This document shows, one piece after another, positions 1,722 to 41,972 of a stretch of 64,000 bases of DNA. Every line of letters starts with the position of its first letter. Positions within the stretch are counted from its first letter, which is position 1. The stretch lies in the NCBI GenBank assembly GCA_028293825.1, contig JAQGNY010000019.1, positions 62,001 through 126,000 of the forward strand, written 5' to 3'. This stretch comes from Verrucomicrobiaceae bacterium. GTDB lineage: Bacteria; Pseudomonadota; Gammaproteobacteria; Pseudomonadales; CAMLJR01. The translations under genes were made by a program, and so were the position numbers. Below the pieces are notes generated by a model. It had not been told where the DNA came from, ran no database searches, and saw nothing but the letters and a program-made list of their open reading frames with translations.

Positions 1722-1795
1722 TGGAGCGGGTGATGGGAATCGAACCCACACTAGTAGCTTGGGAAGCTACAGTTCTACCATTGAACTACACCCGC
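1722..1795 (-). tRNA. glyU: tRNA-Gly (anticodon CCC), prophage integration site
   Basis: A full cloverleaf reads on the minus strand. The 5' acceptor strand GCGGGTG pairs with CACCCGC, and TCCA follows with CCA encoded. The anticodon stem GTAGC/GCTAC encloses the loop TTCCCAA, giving anticodon CCC. The T arm contains GGTTCGATTCC. It closely resembles E. coli glyU from memory. The first 27 nt (1769-1795) recur at 41946-41972, marking it as the prophage attachment site. DNA immediately upstream of the tRNA is therefore prophage DNA. Confidence 0.95.
1769..1795. repeat. attL core (27-bp direct repeat, left copy)
   Basis: Identical to 41946-41972. It corresponds to tRNA-Gly nucleotides 1-27 (5' acceptor strand and D arm). 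Sequence left of it is the rest of the intact tRNA. Crossover within this block leaves the tRNA whole but supplies its 5' part and upstream region from the phage. Confidence 0.9.
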
Positions 1796-1912: not shown

Positions 1913-2947
1913 CTATTTCGTTGGGTCAATGACGCGAATGCCGCGTCGATAATGTTTGCGTGTCATCGATACATTGGAGTGTCCGAGAATTTCTTGGGCG
2001 CGTTGTTCGCTGGCGGCGTCCGATCCCACTTTTGCGCGCAGGTCATGGCGAGTGAACGGCACCTTCAACGGGTTTTCCGGATCGCTAATTGCGAGCTGCA
2101 TCGTGCGTCGCCAAGCTTTATCGAACGGCTGTGTGCGACCGTCCGAAGACACAAAGCAATTGCCATCGCGATTGGTGAAAAGAAACATGCTGTTGCCGTG
2201 GCGAATTGATCTTGCTAAGTCCACCGCTGCGCGTAGCGGCAGAGTCCATCGAAACGTCGTCGCTTTATCAGTCTTTCTATCAATAATGTGCAAGCCGGTC
2301 TCGCGGTCATCCTGCAACACCGTCTGCAATACATCTGATTTACGCGCGCCCGTGAGCATCACTACGGCCGCAAATGCGCGCTGTACAGGCGTCGCTTTTT
2401 CCTGCCACGCGGCTAGCTCCCAATCTTCGACATAGCGATCGCGCGTCAATACGAGGCCGTCGCGCTTGCCGAAGTAAGAAACCTCGCCCTTAATTAAATT
2501 CTTTGGCACAACACCCCACCGCACAGCGCAATCCAAAATAATATTTATCATTTTCAATTGCATGTTGGCGACGTTCATCGTGCGATTTTTTGCAATGACG
2601 TCGAGGTATTGGTAGACCGCCTGCGGCTGGATTGTGGCGCATTTATTTGCACCAACCGAAAGGTTTAAGAGTTCCAGCGCAGCGCCGTAACTGGTGCGCG
2701 TTTGCGGCTTTAGTTTTGGTAAACGATCAAGGCGATAGCGATCGATTACTGATGCGACCGTATCGCCGATCTCCAGTTCTTTACGGTCGGCGAACGCGCG
2801 CAACGCCTCGGGGTAGGAGGTGCCAAGACGAAACCAGCTTTTGTTGTCGAACAGGGCGCGATCATCATGTCGCGTCCGATAATAGTAAGCTCCGTGCTTG
2901 AAGTCCCACCGGGAAGGTAGCGGGTGGTCATGCGCTTTTTTTGGCAT
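1913..2947 (-). CDS. int: Phage tyrosine integrase
   Basis: A 344-residue site-specific recombinase catalysing integration and excision at the tRNA-Gly site. The catalytic set is visible: Arg202 in TGARKSD, His301/Arg304 in TRHDLR, His323 in LGHSNVSM and nucleophile Tyr333 in RKHYRRG. An N-terminal arm-binding region and a core-binding SAM-like domain (about residues 60-150) precede it. The stop lies 118 bp from the attL core, the normal position for an integrase. Its ATG lies inside the end of the DUF4224 gene (20-bp overlap), so the two are translationally linked. It is the last gene of the leftward block. Confidence 0.95.
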   Translation of the reverse strand: MPKKAHDHPLPSRWDFKHGAYYYRTRHDDRALFDNKSWFRLGTSYPEALRAFADRKELEIGDTVASVIDRYRLDRLPKLKPQTRTSYGAALELLNLSVGANKCATIQPQAVYQYLDVIAKNRTMNVANMQLKMINIILDCAVRWGVVPKNLIKGEVSYFGKRDGLVLTRDRYVEDWELAAWQEKATPVQRAFAAVVMLTGARKSDVLQTVLQDDRETGLHIIDRKTDKATTFRWTLPLRAAVDLARSIRHGNSMFLFTNRDGNCFVSSDGRTQPFDKAWRRTMQLAISDPENPLKVPFTRHDLRAKVGSDAASEQRAQEILGHSNVSMTRKHYRRGIRVIDPTK

Positions 2948-3158
2948 GTGATATCGCAGCCATATTTATTTTGAAAGTGTCCGGTTTCTCACGCGATGAT
3001 ACGCCGGTATATTCGTTCACGGCGTCACTGGTGACAATGGGGTGGCCATCCAATCGAACGCGGTGTGGTACGCCCATAACCTTCAGGCGCTTGCATTGCC
3101 GCGTCGGCTGCGTGGTCCCGGTTAACCGTTGAAGGTCCTCCGCATCGAGAATAAACAT
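2928..3158 (-). CDS. DUF4224 family small protein, possible excisionase/integrase partner
   Basis: A 76-residue protein with the DUF4224 pattern: 'DLQRLTGTTQPTRQCKRL' followed by 'GVPHRVRLDGHPIVT'. Members are usually found directly upstream of phage integrases and are thought to be small DNA-binding or excisionase-like proteins. Here it overlaps the integrase start by 20 bp and abuts the reverse transcriptase gene (its ATG at 3158, RT stop at 3159), so RT, this gene and int are probably co-transcribed. A direct role in excision is inferred from position. Confidence 0.7.
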   Translation of the reverse strand: MFILDAEDLQRLTGTTQPTRQCKRLKVMGVPHRVRLDGHPIVTSDAVNEYTGVSSREKPDTFKINMAAISHAKKSA

Positions 3159-4340
3159 CTATTCCTTCTCCTGAGCGGCGAATGTTTTCGTTAATCCAAA
3201 ATTCACCGCGCGTCCGCGCCGCAGAATAATTTTCGCTAGCCGCTGCCGATCGGTGTGGCTGTGACTCGCTTGGCCGAGCAGTCCAAAATAACTATTTGCT
3301 GTTTCGCGCAAATCACTCGCTGCGACAGAACTCACTCGCTTCAGCGCTTGATCAAATGAGCGTCGGCGGGTGGTGCGGCGCCACGGCTTAATCACATGGC
3401 CGACAAAATCAACGCCGCGGTTAATCGGCTGCAATATGGTTTTGCGTGGATTCAGTGCAACGTGCAACCGGTCATGCAAAAAACTATCGATGCGATCGCG
3501 CGCGGCGGTCAGCCATTGCGGCGATTCGTGCAGCAAAACGAAGTCGTCGACGTAGCGCACGTAATGCCGGCAAGGCACCTGGTGTTTTACGAATTGGTCC
3601 AGTGCATCGAGAAAGACATTCGCAAAGAATTGGCTACTCAGGTTGCCGATGGGCAAGCCGAGATGCGCCGCTTGATTGGTTAATCGTTTATGCGGTGGCA
3701 CACGAGTGATCAACGCCGGGTTGCCGCGTAACTCATAATCGGTGCGCGGATCGTGAAATAAGATCTGATGCGTGAGCGACAGCCACCATTGTTCCGGTAT
3801 GCGCGCTGTGAGTTGATCGATAAGAATATTTTTATCGATGCTGACAAAGAAGTTCGCCAAATCACACTTTAAATAGTGCGTCGGTTTGGACCAGTTTTGC
3901 GAAGCGCTGCGAATCTTCGATTCAAGTCGCGTGGCTGCATACAATGTGCCGCGCGTAGGAATACATGCGCAGCTGTCCGCGATAAAGCTCGCATAAAATC
4001 GCGGTGAAATTTTGTTGTATAGCAGGTGATGCACGATGCGATCGCGAAAATCTGCAGCCCATACTTCGCGGGGTTTCGGTCGAGTTACGACAAAGCAAAT
4101 CGAGCGGCCGGGCTTGTACGTGCCATCTATTAATTCATCATGCAGCTGCACCAGATTGCGTTCGAGATTGATTTCGAACGCAAGGGCGCTGCTACTGTTG
4201 CGCTTGCTGCGGCGACAATCAAAATACGCTTGCAGCAAGTCTTCAAATAAAAATCCAGCATGGTCAATATCGTTTGAATCTGCGGACTGCGCGAGCGCGA
4301 AACTCGTTGTTCTTGTCGTTGTTGTTCTGGTTGCCATCAT
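3159..4340 (-). CDS. DGR-type reverse transcriptase
   Basis: The retroelement reverse transcriptase, which copies the template-repeat RNA into adenine-mutagenised cDNA. From the ATG at 4340 it is 393 residues. Seen: 'AADFRDRIVHH' (motif 1 region), 'LKCDLANFFVSID' with a catalytic Asp (about 160), the DGR-like motif 4 'GLPIGNLSSQ' (231-237) and the active-site box YVDD (263-266), followed by the thumb. No maturase or endonuclease domain is present, which argues against a group II intron. The start is uncertain: the frame continues open through the template repeat to 4634, and the nearest ATGs (4340, 4337) lie inside that repeat with no clear ribosome site. Homology begins at about 'FLFEDLLQAYFDC'. 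Confidence 0.9.
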   Translation of the reverse strand: MMATRTTTTRTTSFALAQSADSNDIDHAGFLFEDLLQAYFDCRRSKRNSSSALAFEINLERNLVQLHDELIDGTYKPGRSICFVVTRPKPREVWAADFRDRIVHHLLYNKISPRFYASFIADSCACIPTRGTLYAATRLESKIRSASQNWSKPTHYLKCDLANFFVSIDKNILIDQLTARIPEQWWLSLTHQILFHDPRTDYELRGNPALITRVPPHKRLTNQAAHLGLPIGNLSSQFFANVFLDALDQFVKHQVPCRHYVRYVDDFVLLHESPQWLTAARDRIDSFLHDRLHVALNPRKTILQPINRGVDFVGHVIKPWRRTTRRRSFDQALKRVSSVAASDLRETANSYFGLLGQASHSHTDRQRLAKIILRRGRAVNFGLTKTFAAQEKE

Positions 4341-4379
4341 CGAAGTTCTGATACCACGCGTTGTTCGCTGAGTACTGCG
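4277..4379 (-). repeat. DGR template repeat (TR)
   Basis: A 103-bp block matching the 3' ends of three other genes (4973-5075, 5634-5736, 8892-8993). Read on the minus strand in the target frame it contains nine AAC codons plus TAT, GAT, GAT and GAC, so it is rich in mutable adenines. The 5' part (CGCAGTACTCAGCG) and the roughly 30 nt at the 3' end, with a GC-rich CGCGCTCGCGCAG core, are identical in all copies. The latter is the expected initiation-of-mutagenic-homology segment. It lies between avd and the RT homology, the classical position. Confidence 0.93.
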
Positions 4380-4551
4380 CATAGTCATGCTGTTCACGTC
4401 GCCGCACCGGAGGCTTGCGCCGATCAATGTGGAAACTGCGCGAGACCTGCACGGCGATTTGCCGGCGGTTTCCGTAATGCGCTTAGCCGTGGCCGGATAG
4501 GCCAGGGGCACGACCAGATTCAAAATCGCACGGGCATGAGCGCCGTAACGC

Positions 4552-4905
4552 TCATGCAGCAGGCGCGGTTGCATTTTTCTTCCACCCATTGGCTTGTTTG
4601 CCGATTGATGCGGTGAGCTGCATCGTCGCGGCATGCTGCTTAATGTTGATGAATTGTTTGTCCTTAAAAATTCGCGCCAGAAAATCCACCACTTGCACGC
4701 GCTCGACGATCTCCATCAAATGCGGAGTTTTATCGCGTGCGCCATTGGCTCTGGCGATTAGGACCAACAACTCAATACACTCGTCACGCATCTTTGCCCC
4801 GAGCCCGGCTTTCAAATCGCGTGGAATATTCCGCGTGATATCGGTGGCCAAGCTCAGCAAGTCGTAAGCGACTTTGTAAATGGGTAGTTGATGATGTAAT
4901 GCCAT
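4552..4905 (-). CDS. avd: DGR accessory variability determinant (Avd), four-helix bundle protein
   Basis: A 117-residue, helical, basic protein with the four-helix-bundle/S23-like signature of Avd: 'LPIYKVAYDLLSLATDITRNI' region, 'RDLKAGLGAKMRDECIELL', then 'QVVDFLARIFKDKQFINIKQ'. In the Bordetella phage DGR, Avd is a pentamer that binds the RT and template RNA and is essential for mutagenic retrohoming. It lies directly upstream of the template repeat and RT, and 46 bp after the second target gene. The C-terminus (last 12 residues) is low-complexity. Confidence 0.88.
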   Translation of the reverse strand: MALHHQLPIYKVAYDLLSLATDITRNIPRDLKAGLGAKMRDECIELLVLIARANGARDKTPHLMEIVERVQVVDFLARIFKDKQFINIKQHAATMQLTASIGKQANGWKKNATAPAA

Positions 4906-4923
4906 GCTGAAAAAAACTCGCGA

Positions 4924-4940
4924 AGGGCGCTGCGCGCCCT
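4924..4940 (-). repeat. GC hairpin downstream of variable target (4951-5559 gene)
   Basis: A perfect 7-bp inverted repeat AGGGCGC/GCGCCCT with a 3-nt loop, 32 bp beyond the VR boundary and just after the stop codon. On the minus strand a run of T follows a few bases later, so it could act as a weak terminator. Similar hairpins follow the other two targets, which fits the hairpin/cruciform element that helps target recognition in studied DGRs. Confidence 0.6.
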
Positions 4941-4950
4941 AAGAAAATAA

Positions 4951-5559
4951 TTAAATTACTGAATGACTAACGAATCTGCGGACTGCGCGAGCGCGAAACT
5001 CGTCGTCCTTGCAGTTGCTGCCCTGGAAGCCATCATCGAAGCCCTGACACCACGCGTTGTCCGCTGAGTACTGCGTGCTGGTCCAATGCCAGCCGGTCTC
5101 AAATAGCTCCGGCACGTTGACCCAGCACAGGCGCAGCTCGCGGCGCGAGGGCAGATAGAAATCGTTCAGGCCGTCGATGGTGAGGTTTGCTGCCCATTCG
5201 GCGGCCGGGTGATCGTGTTTCGATTCGCAGAGCGAGGTGGTATTCGCGAGGCCATCGAAATCAGATTTCGCGCCATCGATATCTTTTCCCCGGCCGCCCC
5301 ATTTGATCTCGGCTACGGCTGCCGCAGCGTTGGTCGGCACGATTAAGTGATAATCCGGCACGCCGTTTTCACCACGCATAGCGCCGGCATATACACCGCC
5401 TTGCTCGGGCCAGTGCGCACCAATCTTTGGAATGGCCGAAGTGGCAATTTCAGGCCGATCGAGAAACCGTCTTAAATAATCGTGAACAACGGCGCGGGCG
5501 GGCAATTGCACAATCGCATCGCCAATTTTCGTTGTGAATGTGTCGTGGGTTGGTCGCAT
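4951..5559 (-). CDS. DUF1566 lectin-like DGR target protein (variable protein 2)
   Basis: A 202-residue protein from the ATG at 5559 (GGAG 7 nt upstream). Its core resembles DUF1566/Lcl C-type-lectin-fold domains: 'GAHWPEQGGVYAG', 'WGGRGKDIDGAKSDFDGLANT', 'DFYLPSRRELRLCW', 'WHWTSTQYSA', with the variable segment and 'FRARAVRRF' at the end. The variable surface is AWCQGFDDGFQGSNCKDDEF. N-terminal to the lectin core is a 45-residue extension. No signal peptide or membrane segment is seen. Ligand unknown; DGR lectins normally display the variable residues on a binding face. It is paralogous to the products at 5618-6217 and 8875-9369 and lies directly upstream of avd. Confidence 0.88.
   Translation of the reverse strand: MRPTHDTFTTKIGDAIVQLPARAVVHDYLRRFLDRPEIATSAIPKIGAHWPEQGGVYAGAMRGENGVPDYHLIVPTNAAAAVAEIKWGGRGKDIDGAKSDFDGLANTTSLCESKHDHPAAEWAANLTIDGLNDFYLPSRRELRLCWVNVPELFETGWHWTSTQYSADNAWCQGFDDGFQGSNCKDDEFRARAVRRFVSHSVI
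4973..5075 (-). repeat. DGR variable repeat 2
   Basis: 103 bp aligned without gaps to the template repeat. Eleven template adenines are changed (for example TAT to TGT, AAC to GGC, AAC to TTC). One change is not at an adenine: GAC becomes TGC, including G to T. The 3' roughly 30 bp are identical to the template. Confidence 0.9.
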
Positions 5560-5583
5560 GGCGCTCTCCAAAATTTTGCGCGA

Positions 5584-5598
5584 GGGCGCTACGCGCCC
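5584..5598 (-). repeat. GC hairpin downstream of variable target (5618-6217 gene)
   Basis: Perfect 6-bp inverted repeat GGGCGC/GCGCCC with loop TAC, 35 bp beyond the VR boundary and 20 bp after the stop codon. No T-run follows closely on the minus strand, so termination is less likely than at the other copies. This favours a DGR-related role. Confidence 0.6.
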
Positions 5599-5617
5599 GA
5601 TAAATAAAATTATTGAA

Positions 5618-6217
5618 TTACTGAATAACTAATAATCTGCGGACTGCGCGAGCGCGAAACTCGTTGCCCTTGTCGAGGTTGCTCTGGAAGCCATCATCGA
5701 AGCCCTGATACCACGCGCTGTCCGCTGAGTACTGCGTGCTGCTCCAATACACCGTGTCGTCGAATGCTTCATCGCCGTCTGCTTTGAAAATTTCAACACC
5801 GGTCTGTGTCGGCAATTCCTCGGTGTATGCGTAAGTCGGTGGCACCGCGCTCACGTTTTCACCGTGGCGATAGGTGTAATTCTCTTCGTCGGTTGGCTTT
5901 AGGTTTCGATAAATAATTTCGAGCTCATCGCGGCTCGGCAAATACCAATCGGTAAAGCCGTTGATTTGCAGTTGATGTACCCATTCCGCTACCGGGCTTT
6001 TTGCAACAAGCAATGCGAGCGTGTTGCTGCGGCCATCCGCAAAGCTGCGGGCTTCGGGAATGTCTTTGCCGCGCTCGCCCCATGCGATGGCGGCGTGTTC
6101 GCCTTCAGCTTTTGGCGCAGCGATGATTGCGAATATTTCTTCGCCGACACGAATTTTACCGGCGTAAAAACCGCCTTCAAGTGGTGAGCCGATTACCGGC
6201 AAGTCTGCTGTTTGCAT
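5618..6217 (-). CDS. DUF1566 lectin-like DGR target protein (variable protein 1)
   Basis: A 199-residue protein starting at the ATG at 6217, which has TGAGG 8 nt upstream; a longer frame exists but lacks a ribosome site. Domain features: 'GGFYAGKIRVGEEIF', 'AWGERGKDIPEARSFADG', 'TDWYLPSRDELEIIYRNL', 'YWSSTQYSA', the variable segment 'WYQGFDDGFQSNLDKGNEF', then 'RARAVRRLL'. This is the DUF1566/Lcl C-type-lectin type. It differs from its two paralogues by an insert of about 30 residues before the variable strand. No secretion signal is visible. It is the middle of the target-target-avd-TR-RT run. Confidence 0.88.
   Translation of the reverse strand: MQTADLPVIGSPLEGGFYAGKIRVGEEIFAIIAAPKAEGEHAAIAWGERGKDIPEARSFADGRSNTLALLVAKSPVAEWVHQLQINGFTDWYLPSRDELEIIYRNLKPTDEENYTYRHGENVSAVPPTYAYTEELPTQTGVEIFKADGDEAFDDTVYWSSTQYSADSAWYQGFDDGFQSNLDKGNEFRARAVRRLLVIQ
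5634..5736 (-). repeat. DGR variable repeat 1
   Basis: 103 bp, ungapped against the template repeat. All differences inside the block fall on template adenines: AACAAC to GACAGC, AAC to GGC, AAC to TTC, AAC to AGC, AAC to CTC, AAC to GGC. The last roughly 30 bp are unchanged. Confidence 0.92.
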
Positions 6218-6243
6218 TTCGATTTCCTCAGTGTGGGGTTTGC

Positions 6244-6510
6244 TTAACGAGCCTTCCAAAGCCAAAATTTAAACCGTCGAATACCGCCACAGGCTGCGCG
6301 CATTTCGTCCATGCATTTTTCGATATGTTGTTCGCGCAGGTCGTGGTATTCGCATTTGCTTTTTAATTTCGTAAGCGATTCGTGCTTTTCGCCATTTGCG
6401 CCAAGTGCCCATAACTTCAATGCCCAAACTTGCGGACCTGCCGGCATTGGCCGATGAAAGCGCGGCTTCTCGCTGTGCACGGCGCTGTCATAGGTGGCGA
6501 TCAAAATCAT
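6244..6510 (-). CDS. Hypothetical phage protein
   Basis: An 88-residue basic protein rich in Arg, Lys, His and Trp, with four Cys/His-containing stretches ('CEYHDLREQHIEKC', 'AACGG'). No family is recognised. Its ATG overlaps the stop of the 35-codon gene upstream (ATGA), a sign of coupled translation. It is followed by the variable-protein 1 gene 27 bp later, so it belongs to the same leftward transcript. The 'C-x3-H..H-x3-C' spacing might bind a metal, but this is speculative. Confidence 0.6.
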   Translation of the reverse strand: MILIATYDSAVHSEKPRFHRPMPAGPQVWALKLWALGANGEKHESLTKLKSKCEYHDLREQHIEKCMDEMRAACGGIRRFKFWLWKAR

Positions 6511-6614
6511 TTAATTAAAAACAAAGCGAGCAGACCGCCGAGATACACAAGTGCTACGCAAAGGCTGGCTATTAACAATCCGCGTGGCGTGTGTTTTTTC
6601 AGTAGTGGATTCAT
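6507..6614 (-). CDS. Small single-pass membrane protein (35 aa)
   Basis: A short frame of 36 codons including the stop. The product begins MNPLLKKHTPRG and continues with about 20 hydrophobic residues ending in FLIK, giving one predicted transmembrane helix with a basic N-terminus. A GAGA-like ribosome site lies about 8 nt upstream. The stop TGA overlaps the ATG of the next gene, and the upstream gene ends 14 bp away, so the spacing fits a real gene in the operon. Function unknown; small membrane proteins in early phage regions often act on host envelope or exclusion. Confidence 0.55.
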   Translation of the reverse strand: MNPLLKKHTPRGLLIASLCVALVYLGGLLALFLIK

Positions 6615-6628
6615 TTAATTTTCTCGGT

Positions 6629-7081
6629 TCAGCTGGCTACGAAAATTATTCTTAATGGGCGATGGGCGATGGGCGGCTTCGGCTCGAATCGCAACAGCCA
6701 TGCATCTTTTATCCAGCCATGAAGCGTTAGGTCTGGTTCGATAATATTTCCGTCGGTGTCACACCAAATAGTCAGACGTTCGCTTCGTGCCCGCCGCGCA
6801 GCGTCTTCCGATAGCGAATGCGCATGCTCGGTCTCTCCGGTACCTTCACACCACGGACACTCCACATCTGTGGAAGCATTCGCAGCACTAACAAGCTCAA
6901 GCTCGCCTTCGCCTTCACAGTGTTTGCAATCGCCCGGCTGGACGCTGATGTCATCCGTATTGACCCACTCGAAAAACGGCCCGAAGGATGCGCGCTGAAA
7001 GCGCAAGCAGATCCAATTACCTTCGAGCGGGGGCTCGTTTTTAACAAACGCATTCATCGGCGGATTGGTAGAAAAATTCAT
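6629..7081 (-). CDS. Hypothetical phage protein with DnaJ-like zinc-finger motifs
   Basis: A 150-residue protein with an AAGGA ribosome site 8 nt before the ATG. Residues about 52-86 contain two DnaJ-type half-motifs, 'CKHCEGEGE' and 'CPWCEGTGE', that together could bind one zinc ion. Flanking regions contain 'PFFEWVNTDD' and a C-terminal strand-rich part ('LTIWCDTDGNIIEPD'). Such short CxxCxGxG proteins recur in phage early regions without a defined role. The motif alone does not make it a chaperone: there is no J domain. It lies in the leftward block between the 35-aa membrane gene and the gene at 7098. Confidence 0.65.
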   Translation of the reverse strand: MNFSTNPPMNAFVKNEPPLEGNWICLRFQRASFGPFFEWVNTDDISVQPGDCKHCEGEGELELVSAANASTDVECPWCEGTGETEHAHSLSEDAARRARSERLTIWCDTDGNIIEPDLTLHGWIKDAWLLRFEPKPPIAHRPLRIIFVAS

Positions 7082-7097
7082 TTGCGATTCCTTTTCG

Positions 7098-7394
7098 CTA
7101 GCTGGCGAGTGGTAACTGCTCAGTGCTGAAATGCAGATCGAGTGCTGCGCAGGTAATTAATTGCTTGGCCTCGCGATTCATCGGCTCTATTTTTAATTCG
7201 ATCACCACCAGCGACGCAGCGCGCACCGGGCACAGCGTGCGAAAGTAAGCAGCGCGAACGAGGGGTTGCAGCGCGAGCGTTTTTTCTAAATAAATTGACT
7301 CGCCGAGTGATTCACGTTTTTGGTCGCGCATTTCCAGCAACCGGTTCGCTTCGCGCAGCGGGGATTTCTTTATCTGTTTCGCTCGTTGCAGCAT
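7098..7394 (-). CDS. Hypothetical phage protein
   Basis: A 98-residue protein from the ATG at 7394 (GGAG 10 nt upstream). It overlaps the previous gene by 83 bp in another frame, which is long but seen in dense early phage regions. The sequence is helical and basic at the N-terminus ('MLQRAKQIKKSPLREANRLLE'), with a hydrophobic strand 'AASLVVIELKIEP' and a Leu-rich C-terminus. No family is recognised. The overlap lowers confidence that both frames are translated. Confidence 0.45.
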   Translation of the reverse strand: MLQRAKQIKKSPLREANRLLEMRDQKRESLGESIYLEKTLALQPLVRAAYFRTLCPVRAASLVVIELKIEPMNREAKQLITCAALDLHFSTEQLPLAS

Positions 7395-7521
7395 CGTCAA
7401 ACCACTCCACGTAAAGTTGATAACCAATATCGACAAACGCAGTCGTCTTACCCTGCGCGTGCAACTCGCGAATTCGTTGCATAGCCGCTTCGTAATTCGC
7501 GGCCAGCTCTAATTTCCGCAT
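7312..7521 (-). CDS. Hypothetical phage protein
   Basis: A 69-residue acidic/helical protein ('ELAANYEAAMQRIRELHAQGK', then 'AFVDIGYQLYVEWFDD'), with a disordered tail rich in Pro, Ala and Arg. AGGA lies 9 nt before the ATG. It starts inside the end of the KilAC-domain gene (74-bp overlap) and runs into the next gene. The coherent N-terminal half supports a real product. No family recognised. Confidence 0.5.
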   Translation of the reverse strand: MRKLELAANYEAAMQRIRELHAQGKTTAFVDIGYQLYVEWFDDAATSETDKEIPAARSEPVAGNARPKT

Positions 7522-7765
7522 CGATAATTTCCTGTAGCAGCGACATACCTTTTGCGGTAACGGTGCTCACCAAATATTGACGCGTGATATTGGTGCCGGG
7601 CTTTTTAAAGTCGCGCAGCTCGTTGATAAAATCGCCGGCTCTTTCGTATTTCGGCAGCGCGATATTCATGCTGCCGATGATTCGCTCGCGGCGAAGTGCC
7701 GCGTACAATTTGCGCGCGCAAACACCGAGCTGATGGGCAGCGTCAATAATCGTTGGCTTTTTCAT
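7448..7765 (-). CDS. KilAC-domain (phage antirepressor C-terminal) protein
   Basis: A 105-residue protein resembling the stand-alone KilAC/ANT domain: 'DAAHQLGVCARKLYAALRRERII', 'LPKYERAGDFINELRDFKKPG', 'YLVSTVTAKGMSLLQEII'. In longer proteins this winged-helix-like domain follows a Bro-N or Rha domain; here it stands alone. Possible roles are DNA binding and modulation of phage repressors, but family function is loosely known. Its start overlaps the stop of the upstream gene by 4 bp (ATGA), so they are coupled. The last 20 residues diverge from the family. Confidence 0.72.
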   Translation of the reverse strand: MKKPTIIDAAHQLGVCARKLYAALRRERIIGSMNIALPKYERAGDFINELRDFKKPGTNITRQYLVSTVTAKGMSLLQEIIDAEIRAGRELRSGYATNSRVARAG

Positions 7766-8049
7766 GCGGCTGGCCTCGTTGGATTTTGGCTACACAAAAT
7801 TGCGTTGAGTTTTGTTAACACTTCCTGCAGGCGGCGTTGCACGCGGCGCTTTACGAAATCAGATTCGCCGTCGTCATAAAGCTCAATGCATTCATTGATT
7901 ACCGGCTTTTCGTTCCATTTTTGTTTTGCAGTGACGCGTAGTTGATTAGCGATGCTGCTGAACTCGACCGCAACGGATGGCCCATTAACCGAGGCAATCT
8001 GCATTGCGATATCGATAATTTGACGGACCAGTTGCGGCAACGGATTCAT
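7762..8049 (-). CDS. Hypothetical phage protein
   Basis: A 95-residue protein starting at the ATG at 8049, which overlaps the stop of the dNMP kinase gene by 4 bp. It is almost entirely helical ('LVRQIIDIAMQIAS', 'FSSIANQLRVTAKQ', 'VKRRVQRRLQEVLTKLNAILC'). No known family is recognised. Overlaps at both ends place it firmly in the leftward operon. Confidence 0.6.
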   Translation of the reverse strand: MNPLPQLVRQIIDIAMQIASVNGPSVAVEFSSIANQLRVTAKQKWNEKPVINECIELYDDGESDFVKRRVQRRLQEVLTKLNAILCSQNPTRPAA

Positions 8050-8621
8050 GCGGCGTGCCTCCGCTGCAACTCGTTTACCCATGTATTTGCTTGGCGGTGC
8101 AGCAGCTCGATGCTGGCATTTAGAACGACATGGTCGCGATGGTTGATCGCTATCCCGGCTTCGCTTTCGTGATTGCCGATAGGCGTTAAATCGGGTCGCT
8201 CAATATGTAAAAGCTGACCTTTGCTGCGCACGAATTTCGCTTCGTTTTCCATGCGCACGTCGCTGATCACGATGCCGTTGTATTCGCGGTGCAGCGCTTG
8301 CTCGATAAAATCAATTCGCTCGCTGACCAGATTTACCCACAGGTCCGCGTCTATTAATTTGCGGCCCCACTCCGTGCCTAACGTTTGCATTAAGCGGCGC
8401 GGGCTCACGCCCAGCTCAGGTAATGGCGATTCTTTGGCCGCGCGATTGATAAGCATTGAATCCAAAATGCTGCGATCAATGCGCATGAGCGCAGCGATCA
8501 TGTCGCGAATCGGATCAGCAAAAGACACTTCAATAAATTGGTGCTGTTCAACCAAATATTTCGCCATCGTCGATTTGCCACTGCCGGCTGGGCCGGTGAG
8601 GCCGAGCAGGATCATTGGCAA
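8046..8621 (-). CDS. Deoxynucleoside monophosphate kinase-like protein
   Basis: A 191-residue P-loop kinase that probably phosphorylates dNMPs to feed phage DNA synthesis. The Walker A motif GPAGSGKST lies at residues 10-18. 'FADPIRDMIAALM' and 'LMQTLGTEWGRKLIDADLWVN' match the substrate-binding region of T4 gp1-like and other phage dNMP kinases. 'GIVISDVRMENEA' is the Walker-B-like strand with the Asp-Val-Arg motif common in that family. The start overlaps the upstream membrane-protein gene by 10 bp. Base specificity cannot be assigned. Confidence 0.8.
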   Translation of the reverse strand: MPMILLGLTGPAGSGKSTMAKYLVEQHQFIEVSFADPIRDMIAALMRIDRSILDSMLINRAAKESPLPELGVSPRRLMQTLGTEWGRKLIDADLWVNLVSERIDFIEQALHREYNGIVISDVRMENEAKFVRSKGQLLHIERPDLTPIGNHESEAGIAINHRDHVVLNASIELLHRQANTWVNELQRRHAA

Positions 8622-8818
8622 AACTCCGGCTTAGGTTGGTGACTGCACATCACGCGCTCTTGCATTTTTGCATCTTGATAATCGAGCGTGCCGGCGAGCG
8701 CGAGCGCGATAACAAAAATCGTCACTGCGTAAATGGTGCGTGCCTGATTGCGTGTAACCGCTCGGCGCACGTCGCGAAGCACGAGCAAGAAAAAAACGGA
8801 TATCTGTGAGGTTTGCAT
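8612..8818 (-). CDS. Small membrane protein
   Basis: A 68-residue protein from the ATG at 8818 (GAGG 10 nt upstream). The N-terminus is hydrophobic ('ISVFFLLVL'), followed by a basic stretch and a clear transmembrane segment 'TIYAVTIFVIALALAGTL', then a polar C-terminus with two Cys. No family is recognised. It lies between the frameshifted target gene and the dNMP kinase and overlaps the kinase start. Confidence 0.55.
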   Translation of the reverse strand: MQTSQISVFFLLVLRDVRRAVTRNQARTIYAVTIFVIALALAGTLDYQDAKMQERVMCSHQPKPEFCQ

Positions 8819-8844
8819 TTGCGGTGGCCTCAAAAAAAATTCCA

Positions 8845-8857
8845 GGCGCTGCGCGCC
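8845..8857 (-). repeat. GC hairpin downstream of variable target (8875-9369 gene)
   Basis: A 5-bp inverted repeat GGCGC/GCGCC with loop TGC, 34 bp beyond the VR boundary. On the minus strand it is followed by GGAA and eight T, so it also looks like a weak intrinsic terminator. The AT-rich spacer and hairpin repeat the arrangement at 4924 and 5584. Confidence 0.5.
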
Positions 8858-8874
8858 GAATAGAAATAATTAAA

Positions 8875-9369
8875 TTAATGAAGGACTGATGAATCTGCGG
8901 ACTGCGCGAGCGCGAAACTCGCCGCTCTTGACGATGATGAGCTGGCCGCCAACATCGAAGTTCTGAAACCACGCGGTGACGCTGAGTACTGCGTGCTGCT
9001 CCAATGCCAGTCATCGACGATTAATTGCGGAGCAACCAGCTTTATCAGTCGCAACTCGTGACGCGCAGGCAGATACAAATCGCGATGGCCATCGATGTCG
9101 AGCGCCATTATTTTTTGCGCCAAATCGCTGCCGTTTTCCGCCATGGCGTGGGTGTTGGCTACACCATCCCAATCGCTCCGAGCGCCCAAAATATCTTTGC
9201 CACGCTTGCCCCATTTCACATTGATAAGTAGCGCGCGCGGATCGGTAGGCGCTATCAGGTGGTAATCGGGCTGACCGTTTTGGCCCGGGCACAGCGCGAT
9301 AAAGATGCCGCCTTGTTCGGGCCAGTGTTCGCCAAGGCGCGGGGGTTTTGTTTGGGCTTGAGATGTCAT
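8875..9369 (-). CDS. DUF1566 lectin-like DGR target protein 3, frameshifted within its variable repeat
   Basis: The reading frame gives 164 residues. The first 130 match the other two targets: 'LGEHWPEQGGIFIALCPGQ', 'WGKRGKDILGARSDWDGVANT', 'HRDLYLPARHELRL', 'WHWSSTQYSA'. After that the product becomes Ser/Ala-rich. The VR is 102 bp instead of 103: one adenine of the template AACAAC is missing. Restoring it gives '..AWFQNFDVGGQLIIVKSGEF' and 'RARAVRRFISPS', with a stop at 8870. The gene is therefore out of frame at present but could be repaired by a further retrohoming event. No signal peptide. It lies away from the other two targets, early in the leftward transcript. Confidence 0.82.
   Translation of the reverse strand: MTSQAQTKPPRLGEHWPEQGGIFIALCPGQNGQPDYHLIAPTDPRALLINVKWGKRGKDILGARSDWDGVANTHAMAENGSDLAQKIMALDIDGHRDLYLPARHELRLIKLVAPQLIVDDWHWSSTQYSASPRGFRTSMLAASSSSSRAASFALAQSADSSVLH
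8892..8993 (-). repeat. DGR variable repeat 3 (one base shorter)
   Basis: 102 bp against 103 in the template. All substitutions fall on template adenines (TAT to TTT, GAT to GTT, AACAACAAC to CTCATCATC, GAC to GTC, AACAAC to AGCGGC). The single gap is best placed at the second adenine of the first AAC (AACAAC to TCACC). The 3' roughly 30 bp equal the template. Confidence 0.9.
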
Positions 9370-10195: not shown

Positions 10196-10648
10196 TTAGG
10201 CAGCAGCCACTTTCTTTTGCCACCCGTTTTCCGTTTCTACGAATTGGATCTGCATGGCGACATGTTCTTTCTTATCAAGCTGATTTAGTCGATCAACCAT
10301 ATCTTTGATTGAGCTTTTATCGTCGACGCAATCTTTGTAAATAAAGCGCAAAAGTCGATCAGCCGTCCCGCTAATAGCGTTATCGCCGCTCTCCCATTTA
10401 CGTACCGTAATCTCCTTTACATCAAGAAACTCAGCCAGTCTGCGCTGTGACATGTCCATCTCCTTTCTCAGGTAACGGATTTCGTCCGCAGATAATGCCT
10501 CCGCGCTTTCGATAACACAGAGACCAATTGCTTTGTGCAAGCCCTTTAAGTCCTGAATAGAAAACGCTTCGCCATAGGGCGTTTCCTCGATGGAGAAGCC
10601 GTTCTCTAAGTAGACATTGGGCAAACCGCATAGCTTGTAGTGAAACAT
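10196..10648 (-). CDS. MqsA-like HTH antitoxin
   Basis: A 150-residue protein with a central XRE/MqsA-type helix-turn-helix: 'SADEIRYLRKEMDMSQRRLAEFL' and 'VKEITVRKWESGDNAISG' (about residues 52-92). The N-terminal part (1-45) is strand-rich, with 'YKLCGLPNVYLENGFSIEETPYGE', and may hold the toxin-binding region. It has no CxxC zinc site like E. coli MqsA, so only the HTH half matches well. It starts 2 bp after the DUF4258 gene and is therefore the second gene of a toxin-first operon. Autoregulation through the palindrome at 10992-11010 is likely. Confidence 0.7.
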   Translation of the reverse strand: MFHYKLCGLPNVYLENGFSIEETPYGEAFSIQDLKGLHKAIGLCVIESAEALSADEIRYLRKEMDMSQRRLAEFLDVKEITVRKWESGDNAISGTADRLLRFIYKDCVDDKSSIKDMVDRLNQLDKKEHVAMQIQFVETENGWQKKVAAA

Positions 10649-10650
10649 GC

Positions 10651-10971
10651 TTAGCCCTCCGAAATATGCAACACGTGAATCTTCCTGTCATTAGCACTGC
10701 CAGCTTCTTCGACGGCAATTGCAATATGGATATCTTGACCGGCAGAGATGTAAGTGAGGTTGCACAAAGTATGCCCATGCTCACCAATTACCGGGGTGTA
10801 ACTCATATAGCCGCACTCCAAACATTTCCAAATCTGACTCATGGAAACATTGCCGGCGACACCTTTCTCAAATGCCAAGGCGAAAAAAACCCGCGAGGAA
10901 TCTTTTGCGATCTCGCGTATTGCGTTTAACAGCGCCCCAGAATTTGAAAGAAACGGCTTTATCTCAGCCAA
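10651..10971 (-). CDS. DUF4258-like protein, candidate toxin
   Basis: A 106-residue protein read from a TTG at 10971 with GGAG 8 nt upstream. 'MSQIWKCLECGYMSYTPVIGEHGH' followed by 'LTYISAGQDIHIAIAVEE' and 'KIHVLHI' fits the DUF4258 pattern, a fold related to BECR ribonuclease toxins. The companion HTH gene lies 2 bp downstream, and a strong promoter with a palindromic operator lies upstream, as in mqsRA or higBA operons. The toxic activity is inferred. It may serve prophage maintenance or defence. Confidence 0.6.
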   Translation of the reverse strand: MAEIKPFLSNSGALLNAIREIAKDSSRVFFALAFEKGVAGNVSMSQIWKCLECGYMSYTPVIGEHGHTLCNLTYISAGQDIHIAIAVEEAGSANDRKIHVLHISEG

Positions 10972-11128: not shown

Positions 11129-11737
11129 TTAGCCGGCCTGCTTCCTGCGAGCGACCACAACGCCAACCAAGCCAGCCGCCAGCAAGCCTATCGAGCTCGG
11201 CTCAGGTACTTCCGTCAATCGATCAATAATGCCGCTGATATACCCGTAATAACCATTTCCATTCATGTACATCAGCCCAAATGTTCCGCCGATAAACTCA
11301 CCATTGGCGAAGTTAAAAGCAAAGTTTTGGATGGTAGATTCCAGCCCGCCAGAATAGCTAAGCCGTGGTCCTTCGACGTGCCACCCAATCACGTCTTCAT
11401 TAGCAAAGACTGAGTCCTCACAGCCCTGACCAGATTGCGCGTAATACGTCGCGCCTTCGGTCGCAATTTCATAGCTGAGATCACGACTATCGCAGGAATG
11501 CTCTGGCGGCAAAGTGGCGGCATCTAGAGTGAACTGCCCAAAGGCCGAAGATTTCCCGTTAAAGATGGCGCTTCCATCCTTGCCAATCAGTGGCAAGTTC
11601 GGATCGACAACGCCGATCGGGAAGTCTCCACTATGAACAAAGTTAAATTCGGTGACCTCGCCCGAAAATAAATAGGTGGCCGGGTAAGCGTGAGCCGTGG
11701 TCGAAACAATGGCAGTTAGTAGCAAGGCAGTGCGCAT
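11129..11737 (-). CDS. Secreted PEP-CTERM anchor protein carried by the prophage
   Basis: A 202-residue protein from the ATG at 11737 (AAGGA upstream). It has a short Sec signal peptide ending near 'TAHAYPA', a strand-rich body with four Cys, and a C-terminal PEP-CTERM sorting tail: 'VPEPSS', a hydrophobic helix and the basic end 'ARRKQAG'. Proteins of this kind are sorted and cleaved by EpsH/exosortase, often alongside exopolysaccharide genes. No exosortase lies in the window, so the host must supply it. It is the third gene of a small leftward cargo group after the lipoprotein and the small membrane protein. Body function unknown. Confidence 0.85.
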   Translation of the reverse strand: MRTALLLTAIVSTTAHAYPATYLFSGEVTEFNFVHSGDFPIGVVDPNLPLIGKDGSAIFNGKSSAFGQFTLDAATLPPEHSCDSRDLSYEIATEGATYYAQSGQGCEDSVFANEDVIGWHVEGPRLSYSGGLESTIQNFAFNFANGEFIGGTFGLMYMNGNGYYGYISGIIDRLTEVPEPSSIGLLAAGLVGVVVARRKQAG

Positions 11738-11752
11738 ATGATTCCTTTGCAT

Positions 11753-11972: not shown

Positions 11973-12410
11973 TTATTTGGTGGAGACTGATCCAACTAAA
12001 AAATTAGCATCGTAAACAACGCCCGCCTGACCCTCTTTGGTCTTAAGCAATTGCGCGGTGATGTTCGTTAGGGTGCTGGTATTAGCGTAGGTTTGCCCGG
12101 CGCCGAATGAACCGAAATATCCGCCGCCGGTTGCGCCGACGGTATCTTTTGCGGTTTGAGCTTCAACCGTTTTGAAATAGGGGTAGCCCTCACGCAGTGC
12201 GATTTCGGCGGCTTTTTTCAGTACATATTTCTTAGTGGTATCGCGGTCGGTGTAATTGTTGCCGGTGAAGTCCACTTGCCATAAATCTGGGCCAAGCTGA
12301 GTTTCTGAAAACCCCATTCCGCCTGTCCAGCCGGATTTTTTGGTATCGTAAGGTGTGGCGCAAGCGGCAAGCAGCGTGATCAAAAGAACGGTAAATAGAT
12401 GCTTAATCAT
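11973..12410 (-). CDS. Lipoprotein, CC0125/CC1285-like
   Basis: A 145-residue lipoprotein from the ATG at 12410. The signal peptide 'MIKHLFTVLLITLLAAC' ends in an LAAC lipobox, with Cys17 the lipidated residue. The body, 'SGWTGGMGFSETQLGPDLW' and 'FTGNNYTDRDTTKKYVLKKAAEIAL', resembles the CC0125/CC1285 lipoprotein family, which has a conserved repeated-strand plus helix unit. Expected at the inner leaflet of the outer membrane (Ala at +2). It is the first gene of the cargo group and may alter the envelope of lysogens. Confidence 0.75.
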   Translation of the reverse strand: MIKHLFTVLLITLLAACATPYDTKKSGWTGGMGFSETQLGPDLWQVDFTGNNYTDRDTTKKYVLKKAAEIALREGYPYFKTVEAQTAKDTVGATGGGYFGSFGAGQTYANTSTLTNITAQLLKTKEGQAGVVYDANFLVGSVSTK

Positions 12411-12515
12411 GGTGTCTCCATTTCGATAAGCAGGAAGACACGACGCGCCCTCCATGGTGGTTTCAAATTATTGTAGTTGTTAATCCGGTATTGTCCCTTT
12501 TTCGTGGTGGCGCAC

Positions 12516-24463: not shown

Positions 24464-25426
24464 ATGTTTCGCTCACCGCTGGTCATGGGCATTCGCACCA
24501 CATGCTCCGATGGCAAATACCGCACGCGTTATCCCGACGGCATTTGGACGCCGCCGGGTGCGCAGCTGCAAGCGAATGCGGCGGATGTTGCGGCGGCCTC
24601 TGGCGTTTTCGCGACAGGAGGCGGTACGGACCTTTCACAAATACTGCTCCACAAAAGTTTTGAGGGCGGCACACTCGGAGCAAATATCAGCACCGTTGCG
24701 CCCGTTTCTTCAACGGGCGGCATTATAAGTGCGGACCGTGCGATGTTCGGCAGCCGCAGTGCGCGCGATGACATCGCTGCAGGCCAAGCGGGTGGCATGG
24801 GTTGGTATTGGGAGCCCGGGGATGGATTCCCGCGCATTGCGGAAGGTGAAGAGATTTGGATGCGTTTAGCTATCTGGATTCCAGTTGGCGCCAATCTCGC
24901 TGGCAATATCGGCACAGGGCTGAAGTTCTTCCGCTTTCGACAAAAAGACAGCGGAGGCACGATTCAGAATTATCAGGATTTGTACTACGTGTGTGGTGCG
25001 AACGGCGCGTTTGAGCGATGGCGCACAATCAACGAAAACAGCAGTCCGGCGCTTGATGTAACTCTGACCACAGATCCTGCGACCGCCCTTATTGGCGGTC
25101 AGTTTAATTTTGTGGAATTACACCTGAAGGCGCACTCGGTTGCAGCATCGGGGCGCATTCAATTGTGGGTTAACGGCGTATTGGTTGCCGACAATAATTC
25201 AAGGCAAACGCTAGCTGGCGCAGGTTGGTCGTACTTTCAGTTTTTGTTGCTTACCTACTGGAATCAACGGGTAGCTAATCCGCCTTCGGGCGCTGGCCCC
25301 GATGTGCCATACACTTTCTATTACGATCAGTGGTCGTGTGCAGTTAAAACCGCTTCGCGAGACGATACTGGCTCGCTTGCATTAGACCCTGCCGGGAATC
25401 GGTTCATCGGGACGGCAGTGTTATGA
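24464..25426 (+). CDS. Phage protein with a predicted lectin/lyase-like beta-sandwich
   Basis: A 320-residue protein. After a phage-type N-terminal segment (1-60), residues about 65-300 read like a jelly-roll: 'ILLHKSFEGGTLGANISTV', 'MRLAIWIPVGANLAGNIGTGLKFFRF', 'FNFVELHLKAHS', 'GRIQLWVNGVLVADN', 'TFYYDQWSCAVK'. The 'hxLWVNGxLVxD' block is typical of concanavalin-like folds and of some polysaccharide-lyase-like domains. It may bind or cut host surface polysaccharide. It overlaps the next gene by 4 bp. No catalytic residues are assigned. Confidence 0.6.
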   Translation: MFRSPLVMGIRTTCSDGKYRTRYPDGIWTPPGAQLQANAADVAAASGVFATGGGTDLSQILLHKSFEGGTLGANISTVAPVSSTGGIISADRAMFGSRSARDDIAAGQAGGMGWYWEPGDGFPRIAEGEEIWMRLAIWIPVGANLAGNIGTGLKFFRFRQKDSGGTIQNYQDLYYVCGANGAFERWRTINENSSPALDVTLTTDPATALIGGQFNFVELHLKAHSVAASGRIQLWVNGVLVADNNSRQTLAGAGWSYFQFLLLTYWNQRVANPPSGAGPDVPYTFYYDQWSCAVKTASRDDTGSLALDPAGNRFIGTAVL

Positions 25427-25899
25427 GTGTGTCCATTCTTTCCATTCCGCACACAGCATCCACGTTCGTGGCCGACCAGATATTCAAAACATTTCGGCGT
25501 GCTTGGAATGCGCATGAGTTTGGCGCGAACACCGTATTCGCTGAGCACATTGATTCGCCGCATTTGGAAAAGATCGCAGGAGCGATCGGCGATAGCGTGA
25601 TTGTGATCCCGATGCGCCACCCATCAGCGGTAACGACAAGCTGGCAGCGGCGCGGGTATGACCTGGCCGCGCTAGACAAATTATGGGGCCGGCTGCGCAA
25701 GTACGAATCAGCCTTATTTTTACCGGTCGATGCGATAGATCGCGACCAGCGATTAAACACGATTTCAAACGTTGTCGGGCAGCCATTGAGTACCGATTGG
25801 AAACCCTACAACGTGAATTTCGGTGGCGGGATTGAAATTGCGCACAGCGTGTACGCGCGGTGGATTGTTGAACGATTTTACGGAGCCGGCACGTTATGA
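25423..25899 (+). CDS. Sulfotransferase-like P-loop protein
   Basis: A 158-residue protein, short for the family. 'SIPHTASTFVADQIFKTF' at residues 7-24 resembles the PAPS-binding phosphate loop of sulfotransferases (PKxGTxW type). 'VIVIPMRHPSAVTTSWQRRG' resembles the 3'-phosphate-binding strand with its R-x-P/S. 'LFLPVDAIDRDQRLNTI' follows. An active sulfotransferase would need PAPS and a hydroxyl acceptor; the usual catalytic His is not evident. Embedded between two fibre/lectin-like genes with 4-bp overlaps on both sides, it may modify virion proteins or host glycans. Confidence 0.5.
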   Translation: MSVSILSIPHTASTFVADQIFKTFRRAWNAHEFGANTVFAEHIDSPHLEKIAGAIGDSVIVIPMRHPSAVTTSWQRRGYDLAALDKLWGRLRKYESALFLPVDAIDRDQRLNTISNVVGQPLSTDWKPYNVNFGGGIEIAHSVYARWIVERFYGAGTL

Positions 25900-26729
25900 C
25901 CGTCACTATTAATTTTACCGCTAGCCAAAACCCGTTTGTCGACGCGCGCATTACGCAGAGCAACCCCGCCAGCTCGCTGGTGGATTCGTCCAGCATCCTT
26001 AATCAGATTGCGGCAAGTACAGAAAACTTCCTTCTGTATAACGGGGCAACTGACAAAAATCAGTCCGTCACCGCAACCGTTAAATTAGCTGTTAACGAGT
26101 CCGATTATTACAATATCGGCGTTGAGGGCGGTCTGGATTTACGCGTGCTATACACGGACGCCAATAACTACTGCCGAACAGAAATAGAAAACAACGGCGC
26201 CGACGCGAAAACGATGTACATTTTGTCGGTCATCGCTGGCGTCGAAGCAGTGATTGCGACTTACAGCGGTTTAGCTGACGCGTTTTTTACCGATAATATT
26301 GCGTGGACTTTGGACGTTGCATGGACTGGCGCCAATGCCTCTTTCTCATTGAAGAAAAACGGCACTAACGTCGGCGCTCCCGTTACAAAAACATCTTTCG
26401 CTCTCACTGCAGGAAAGCCCGGGTACAACATTATTGCGGGCGCTGGCGGCGGTACGCCTCGCAGCGTTCGGGCAAGCCAAATTGTCATTACTGGCGATAG
26501 TGTCAGCGACACCACTGCGCCATCGGCCACCGCCGGACCAACAGTCTCAAATGCAAACGCCAGCGGTTTCGATATCGGCGCCACAGCGGACGAAGCTGGT
26601 ACCGCATTTTTAATTTATCTCTCGGACATTAATGCGGCGCAACCCAGCGACGCGACCTTCGACGCGAGCACTGAAAAAGCAACGATGGTTGCTTCTACTC
26701 CGTTTTCAATTCACCACACCGGCGGCTAA
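25896..26729 (+). CDS. Phage beta-sandwich structural protein
   Basis: A 277-residue protein rich in Thr, Ala, Asn and Asp. Residues 40-205 form a predicted lectin-like sandwich ('LLYNGATDKNQSVTATVKLA', 'LDLRVLYTDANNYCRTEIEN', 'FFTDNIAWTLDVAWTG', 'FSLKKNGTNVG'). Residues 215-277 look like a second small domain, 'SATAGPTVSNANASGFDIGATADEAGTAFLIYL', similar to Ig/FN3-like phage domains. Likely a virion surface component acting with its neighbours. Family not named. Confidence 0.55.
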   Translation: MTVTINFTASQNPFVDARITQSNPASSLVDSSSILNQIAASTENFLLYNGATDKNQSVTATVKLAVNESDYYNIGVEGGLDLRVLYTDANNYCRTEIENNGADAKTMYILSVIAGVEAVIATYSGLADAFFTDNIAWTLDVAWTGANASFSLKKNGTNVGAPVTKTSFALTAGKPGYNIIAGAGGGTPRSVRASQIVITGDSVSDTTAPSATAGPTVSNANASGFDIGATADEAGTAFLIYLSDINAAQPSDATFDASTEKATMVASTPFSIHHTGG

Positions 26730-26735
26730 TTAATT

Positions 26736-28148
26736 ATGGGCAAAGCGTGGCTGCAGCTTAAAGACGCTGCGGGGAACCGCCGCACGTATTCAGTTTTAGT
26801 CGGCGAGCGCTTGTCCGCAAATGCGGCTGCGCTTTCTGCAGCTACAGCGGCGTTAACAACGGTTGCGCGCTGGGCTAGTGATGCGCAGTCGCAAGCAACG
26901 GCTGCAGGCGCATTGGTAACCGCGATTCGATTAGCGGCAGGCCCGCAAGGTCGGGCGTGGTTACAGCTCAAAGACGCTGCAGGAAATCGCCGTACCTATT
27001 CAATGATCGTAACGCGACTCGGCGCGCAATCTGTTTCGACGGCAACTGGTGCGCTGTCCACTAATCCGCGCATGGCGGGTGCTGCCGTCGATGTTGCAGC
27101 CGCGACCGGCGGTCTAATTAATTGGCAAACCGTCACGCTCGCAGCGCCGCTATATACCGGTACCGGCTCAATACTCGATGCGCATTTTTGGCAGGGCTCG
27201 CCACCGGTGGTCGGTAACACGGTTGCATACGATCCGACGTACATGACGGTTTTGCCGAGCGGCGAAATTGAAGCGACCAGCAATAGTTTTACAGCGCTGG
27301 TGCAATTTAATAACGGTGCGGGCTGGCAGCTGGGCAGTGTCACGGTATTGCCGACGGCATTTGTTGGTTTTGCCGGCGATACCGCAACGGCATCGGCCAC
27401 ATTAAGCGGCGGATCGATTGCACTGTCTGCAGCAGCAATAGATGTTGCCAGCGCGGCCGGCGCGTTGATTACAGCAATTCTTTTGCGTGATACCGCCCAA
27501 GCTCAGGCGCAAGCGACCGGCGCGCTCACAGCATTGATTCAACTCGCTGGCGGTGCAACGGTTCAGTCGAGCGCCACAGCGGTTTTCGGCAATTCAATTG
27601 CGCTCTCCGGAAACGCGCAAGATCAAGCGAGCGCAACGGCCAGCATCACTGCACAAATTCAATTAGCCGCTGTAGCGGTCGTTAGCGCTGCTGCCTCTGC
27701 AGGTTTATTAACTGGAACATTGTTGGCCGGCAGTGCCGTTGACCAAGCGCAAGCATCTGCCGGGCTCGATGCATTAATTAAATTCGCGTCCATCGCATAT
27801 GCACAAGCGACTGCATCGGCAAATCTCTCGGTCGGCACCCTGTTCTATGGCGATGCAGTGGATGCAACTACCGCTAGCGCAATGCTCAGCACGTTAATTC
27901 AATTGCGTGCGGAAGCGACATCCGCATCGAGCGCGAGCGGCGCATTGGATGTAGGCGCTGGTTTGAAAGGCGATGCGCTTGCTTCCGCAAAAGCGTATGC
28001 GGATTTAATGGCGCAAATTTTATTAAGCAGCGACGCAACTAGCGAATCGAAATCGGATTCCGGATTGGTCGCACTCGGACCGGTTGTTCAGGCTCCACGT
28101 GGATCTGCAAATATTCATAACTCACGGCGCCCTCGCGTTTTGCACTGA
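26736..28148 (+). CDS. Alanine-rich repetitive phage fibre protein (20-residue repeats)
   Basis: A 470-residue protein with two internal repeat systems. The N-terminus carries a unit, 'WLQLKDAAGNRRTYS', at about residues 4-18 and again at 75-89. From about residue 225 there are roughly a dozen 20-residue repeats of consensus xxAxASAxLxxxIxLxGxAx, for example DQAQASAGLDALIKFASIAY, AQATASANLSVGTLFYGDAV and DATTASAMLSTLIQLRAEAT. The periodicity and small-residue face suggest a fibrous shaft or solenoid. A cysteine-free, Ala/Ser/Thr-rich composition fits a fibre. It ends 'NSRRPRVLH', a short basic tail. Function as a fibre is inferred. Confidence 0.65.
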   Translation: MGKAWLQLKDAAGNRRTYSVLVGERLSANAAALSAATAALTTVARWASDAQSQATAAGALVTAIRLAAGPQGRAWLQLKDAAGNRRTYSMIVTRLGAQSVSTATGALSTNPRMAGAAVDVAAATGGLINWQTVTLAAPLYTGTGSILDAHFWQGSPPVVGNTVAYDPTYMTVLPSGEIEATSNSFTALVQFNNGAGWQLGSVTVLPTAFVGFAGDTATASATLSGGSIALSAAAIDVASAAGALITAILLRDTAQAQAQATGALTALIQLAGGATVQSSATAVFGNSIALSGNAQDQASATASITAQIQLAAVAVVSAAASAGLLTGTLLAGSAVDQAQASAGLDALIKFASIAYAQATASANLSVGTLFYGDAVDATTASAMLSTLIQLRAEATSASSASGALDVGAGLKGDALASAKAYADLMAQILLSSDATSESKSDSGLVALGPVVQAPRGSANIHNSRRPRVLH

Positions 28149-41945: not shown

Positions 41946-41972
41946 ACAGTTCTACCATTGAACTACACCCGC
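41946..41972. repeat. attR core (27-bp direct repeat, right copy)
   Basis: Identical to the first 27 nt of tRNA-Gly at 1769-1795. Sequence just left of it (about 41921-41945) is a degenerate version of the adjacent anticodon-arm part of the tRNA, so similarity to the tRNA extends a little beyond the perfect block. Confidence 0.9.

Follow-up and report, generated by a model that had tools for sequence, protein, structure and literature searches.

The locus lies in a prophage of about 40.2 kb within the window, by which we mean the whole 64,000-nt stretch of DNA that was analysed. The prophage is bounded by exact 27-bp repeats, attL (1769..1795) in the 5' half of a tRNA-Gly(CCC) gene (1722-1795) and attR (41946..41972), and integrase, primase, terminase, capsid, tape measure and endolysin genes are found inside. 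The tyrosine integrase (1913..2947, minus strand; Pfam Phage_integrase, 34.8 bits) is adjoined by a DUF4224 protein (2928..3158, minus strand; PF13986, E 3e-12), a probable excisionase judging from its position. The cassette of the diversity-generating retroelement (DGR) shares the minus strand with these two genes; the structural genes occupy the plus strand, and the tail tape-measure gene, at 31805, is more than 20 kb from the cassette. The initial annotation had described a prophage-borne DGR in the early/integrase block, more than 20 kb from the tail genes, and its coordinates and layout were borne out.

The reverse transcriptase (RT; 3159..4238, minus strand) matches PHROG 1423 (E 2.6e-116), and its best solved relative is PDB 8ub7 (E 4.6e-37), an entry named 'Reverse transcriptase' that we take to be the RT of the BPP-1 DGR. 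The catalytic motifs IGxxxSQ and YVDD can be read intact in the translation. The start of the protein is uncertain, being either the TTG at 4238 or the ATG at 4337/4340 within the template repeat (TR), and, followed backwards across the TR, the frame stays open as far as 4634. In PADLOC, this RT matched only RT models of other classes, with modest scores. The accessory variability determinant (Avd; 4552..4905, minus strand) was detected by bAvd PF22296 (57 bits) and PHROG 3206 (E 2e-32); its score with the NCBIfam Avd model is below the cut-off (56 of 80 bits). Avd and RT flank the TR and both frames are open, in keeping with the earlier reading of an Avd and a DGR-type RT alongside the repeats.

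The 191 nt that lie directly 5' of the TR and reach back to the end of avd were recognized as the structured RNA RT-15 (RF03018; 4378..4568, minus strand), with 166.6 bits against an Rfam gathering threshold of 82. RT-15 was found directly 5' of the TR also in six relatives, namely Cruim01, Haboob, Magia and three other loci. Because it takes the same place in the window and in these relatives, RT-15 seems to serve as the leader of a DGR template, heading the TR transcript in the DGR subfamily to which the window RT belongs. Among 274 class members, RT-15 was detected in the window's own genome only. A search of the available literature for a connection between RT-15 and DGRs returned no paper. 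On the present analysis, this Rfam RNA would be the leader on the 5' side of a DGR template.

The TR (4277-4377, minus strand) has 101 nt, of which 33 are adenines, and its codons include nine AAC in addition to TAT, GAT and GAC, exactly as had been annotated. Three variable repeats (VRs) on the same strand align with it. VR1 (4973-5073) differs from the TR by 12 changes at template adenines and one elsewhere, VR2 (5634-5734) by 11 changes, all at template adenines, and VR3 (8892-8991) by 14 changes, again all at template adenines, with one further template adenine deleted. When the three VRs were pooled, a template adenine was the site of 37 of the 38 substitutions (Fisher p = 1.3e-19), so that the concentration of differences at adenines claimed earlier was upheld by a test of A-specificity. 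TR and VRs share a 29-nt identity at the 3' end. The locus is a genuine DGR.

All three VRs in the window are followed by a GC-rich inverted repeat with a 3-nt loop: a stem of 7 bp lies 3' of VR1 (4924-4940), one of 6 bp 3' of VR2 (5584-5598) and one of 5 bp 3' of VR3 (8845-8857). Stems of at least 6 bp follow 51% of 341 VRs in relatives, whereas they occur after 8% of TRs and in 5% of shuffled sequences. An inverted repeat after the VR is also known from BPP-1, where, in contrast to the 3-nt loops of the window, it carries a GRNA tetraloop (PMC3240598).

The first two targets are open genes with the VR at the 3' end and a predicted C-lectin-like fold. Target 1 (T1; 4951..5571, minus strand, likely ATG start at 5559) stays below the cut-off of the Pfam family Lcl_C/DUF1566 (PF07603; 26.0 against 34.9 bits), whereas target 2 (T2; 5618..6265, minus strand) exceeds it with 44.3 bits. 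AlphaFold models of T1 (pLDDT 86.8) and T2 (pLDDT 90.9) both found, as the best solved match in Foldseek, the C-terminal domain of Legionella Lcl (8q4e; E 1.6e-4 and 1.4e-4, respectively), and an Lcl-C/C-lectin-like fold is thus predicted for both from the models. A sequence search of the PDB with T2 gave no match. An AbrB/VapB-like motif at the N-terminus of T1 was considered and dropped, its Foldseek E value above 2 being not significant. Target 3 (T3; 8875..9369, minus strand), a type A paralogue like T1 but without the N-terminal extension, had no match in Pfam, PF07603 included, and was assigned by PHROG 4245 (E 1.7e-21). In agreement with the initial annotation, hydropathy, the only measure used, revealed nothing resembling a signal peptide or a transmembrane segment in T1-T3, nor in most relatives. 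A PADLOC search with the targets matched no defence family, PADLOC listing known families only.

In the four-repeat alignment, VR3 is one nucleotide short, the template adenine at TR position 13 or 14 having no counterpart in it. T3 is therefore frame-shifted through its variable region: it reads ...STQYSASPRGFRTSMLAASSSSS... in place of the lectin frame ...VTAWFQNFDVGGQLIIVKSGEFRARAVRRF.... Of the earlier description of one template with three paralogous lectin-fold targets, the template, the paralogy and the fold stand, but the number of targets has to be qualified because of this frameshift, only T1 and T2 being in frame and intact. Among the 341 VRs of relatives, about 4 (loci L007, L036, L045 and L132) carry an internal frame-breaking indel comparable to that of T3. 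Target frames in relatives were assigned by an HMM-based test. An assembly or sequencing error in VR3, which would leave all three targets intact and is compatible with the reading we prefer below, is suggested by the draft state of the genome (56 contigs) and by a gap of a single base; however, the gap falls exactly at a template adenine in an otherwise normal-looking hypermutated VR, and we regard an error as rather unlikely though well worth keeping in mind.

Relatives of the RT, with 66-76% identity, are plentiful in genomes of Pseudomonas and Burkholderiales and also in IMG/VR. At the 128 loci where 9.5 kb or more was available upstream of the RT, two VRs were counted in 78, three in 45, four in 1, one in 1 and none in 3, and at least two VRs were present in 63 of 66 RT clusters (160 relatives). 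These loci were drawn as the best matches to one RT, and therefore the VR counts describe the RT family of the window, not DGRs generally. The VRs occupy stereotyped places: one lies about 850 nt and another about 1.2-1.6 kb upstream of the RT, and a minority of loci have a third at a greater distance. The multi-target layout, whose rarity the initial annotation had implied, is thus not peculiar to the window but the rule in its RT family. The implied rarity is further contradicted by the literature: multi-VR DGRs with paralogous targets were reported in 2012 by DiGReF, in P. fluorescens WH6, Burkholderia and Collimonas (PMC3521204), and again by Yan 2019, with a frequency of 28.6%, together with DUF1566 as the commonest target domain and an enrichment in Pseudomonas and Burkholderia (PMC6642488). 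In the parts of these two papers that we consulted, the DGRs resemble that of the window in having one template and several paralogous targets; the early-operon location and the pairing of target types described below are not singled out there.

The targets fall into two paralogue types, A (T1 and T3 in the window) and B (T2), with 99% tree agreement and a clade support of 0.79; typing was by motif and left out 65 of 353 genes that have no constant-part motif, some of which resemble a shorter third type. In annotated phages, the cassette is located between the repressor and the integrase. In the relatives where homologues were detected (repressor in 32 of 128, integrase in 19 of 67), the repressor was always upstream and the integrase always downstream, and a terminase was never present within 10 kb. 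The distal target lay 0.9-3.3 kb after the repressor in 9 of 9 loci where both were seen. Phages D3 and Aurca01 carry a target homologue at the same place after the repressor. That of D3 (L166 6710-7387) resides in a phage without a visible DGR, the whole record having yielded no RT of the window family. A target homologue without a visible DGR was also observed in the jumbo phage Paride (L165, about 6001-6332). A search for sister prophages in the genus and family (two genomes) found the RT only in the window's own genome.

Among named phages, the Burkholderia phage Magia (MT701587) and the Pseudomonas phages Cruim01, Haboob, LPPA56 and SC_8_H2H8_2017 have RTs with 64-73% identity to that of the window. 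Those examined have, like the window, an Avd, an RT-15 leader, one TR and two or three small lectin-fold targets with VRs, in an early operon between repressor and integrase. Two lectin genes of Magia were already annotated as 'possible/potential DGR target', which also speaks against the supposed rarity. The order outward from the RT is A then B in the window but mostly B then A in Pseudomonas, and a frame-shifted third target sets the window apart from the DGRs of Magia and the Pseudomonas phages.

The diversification activity of the family can be seen by comparing closely related loci. Loci L005 and L097 are identical in the RT and its flank as well as in VR2, but VR1 shows 19 differences, all at template adenines. 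Nine such comparisons gave a total of 123 VR differences at template adenines and 5 elsewhere, although they are not independent because the loci overlap. Between the distal targets of Cruim01 and Aurca01, 13 of 486 constant positions differ, and the VR has 15 differences, all at template adenines. Since VRs differ almost only at template adenines despite identical flanks, the RT family of the window is active. Homing in the window strain itself is presumed. In Aurca01 we found no full-length RT of the window family; its VR-type diversified target (L167 6010-6609) is present all the same, and its DGR may have been lost or may act in trans.

We consider it probable (roughly 65%) that the window carries the multi-target DGR of a temperate phage, complete and probably functional, and that its targets are variable non-virion binders of the early or lysogenic phase. 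The mutagenic mechanism is borrowed from BPP-1 (mtd/avd/brt), and all features tested fit with it. The TR transcript, headed by the RT-15 RNA, would be copied by RT and Avd with errors at adenines, and the cDNA would replace the VR of any of the three target genes. Homing would be guided by the 29-nt 3' identity of TR and VR, perhaps with help from the GC-rich inverted repeats that follow the VRs, and the ligand face of the small Lcl_C/C-lectin-like proteins would thereby be rewritten. The lesion of T3 is flanked by blocks identical to the TR, and it should therefore be replaced the next time that homing covers the full length of the VR. The window shares with BPP-1 the RT/Avd/TR/VR mechanism and the adenine specificity, whereas its RT is only about 30% identical to that of BPP-1, its TR is preceded on the 5' side by RT-15 and its RT frame extends backwards into the TR.

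The targets are encoded on one strand between the repressor side and the integrase, far from the late operon, and have no signal peptides, so that they seem most likely to work as variable binders inside the cell, during infection or lysogeny, and not as tail fibres. Candidate partners, on which we can only speculate, would be proteins of competing phages, as in superinfection exclusion, or host defence proteins. There are published precedents for viral DGR targets that were not assigned to structural proteins (PMC8144416), and in bacteria a DGR-based immunity via cytosolic variable proteins has been hypothesized (PMC10053308).

Alternatively, the targets could be minor virion proteins, e.g. 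tail-tip adhesins made early, through which the DGR alters host range as in BPP-1. Host-range change is the classical role of phage DGRs (PMC8144416), the same domain is recognized at structure level in some long phage proteins, one of which is annotated as a tail fibre, and an early position may be compatible with packaging into virions. However, the target of BPP-1 is a tail fibre whereas those of the window are small, stand-alone proteins without a tail-attachment domain; the window targets do not fit the BPP-1 type of a tail adhesin in a late operon, being encoded in an early operon, and this layout, more than 20 kb from the tail genes, is conserved in relatives. A role in the virion is thus unlikely. 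Less likely still, the targets may be lysogenic-conversion proteins that reach the cell surface by a non-classical route and alter adhesion or phage receptors. The relative with the Lcl C-terminal domain is a surface adhesin (NCBIfam adhesin_Lcl), and bacterial DGR targets are mostly envelope proteins (PMC8144416). Legionella Lcl (8Q4E) is a collagen-like surface adhesin; the window targets are short phage proteins. Against display on the surface, hydropathy gave no sign of export in them or in most relatives. Finally, decay of the cassette, with the T3 frameshift marking lost function and RT activity having ceased, would account for a deletion with so few counterparts in relatives, but is improbable given the open RT and Avd frames with intact motifs, the intact T1 and T2, and a single mismatch outside template adenines over about 300 VR positions, which is what continuing homing would give.

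Retaining the interpretation of non-virion binders, we would extend it more tentatively, at clearly less than even odds, to a widespread group of temperate phages that diversifies conserved A/B pairs of intracellular early or lysogenic proteins, for instance anti-defence or superinfection-exclusion binders, and not a virion adhesin. The window instance is ordinary for its family; its importance lies in the comparison, which shows that many phages of Pseudomonas and Burkholderiales share a stereotyped DGR layout whose paired non-tail targets are conserved, and that near-identical phages have diversified recently. Because isolated phages carry this layout, roles of phage DGRs beyond tail-fibre change are directly testable.

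Several other genes of the prophage were observed in passing. The early region contains a PEP-CTERM protein gene (11129-11752; PF07589, 28.3 bits) and a lipoprotein-like gene (11973-12455), both possible lysogenic-conversion genes. At 10196-10971, an HTH gene immediately follows a small partner gene of the same strand, in a toxin-antitoxin-like arrangement. A further group (24464-28148) separates the gene of the major head protein from the head-tail genes; one member (24464-25426) has no PHROG or Pfam match, and one gene of the group has alanine-rich repeats.
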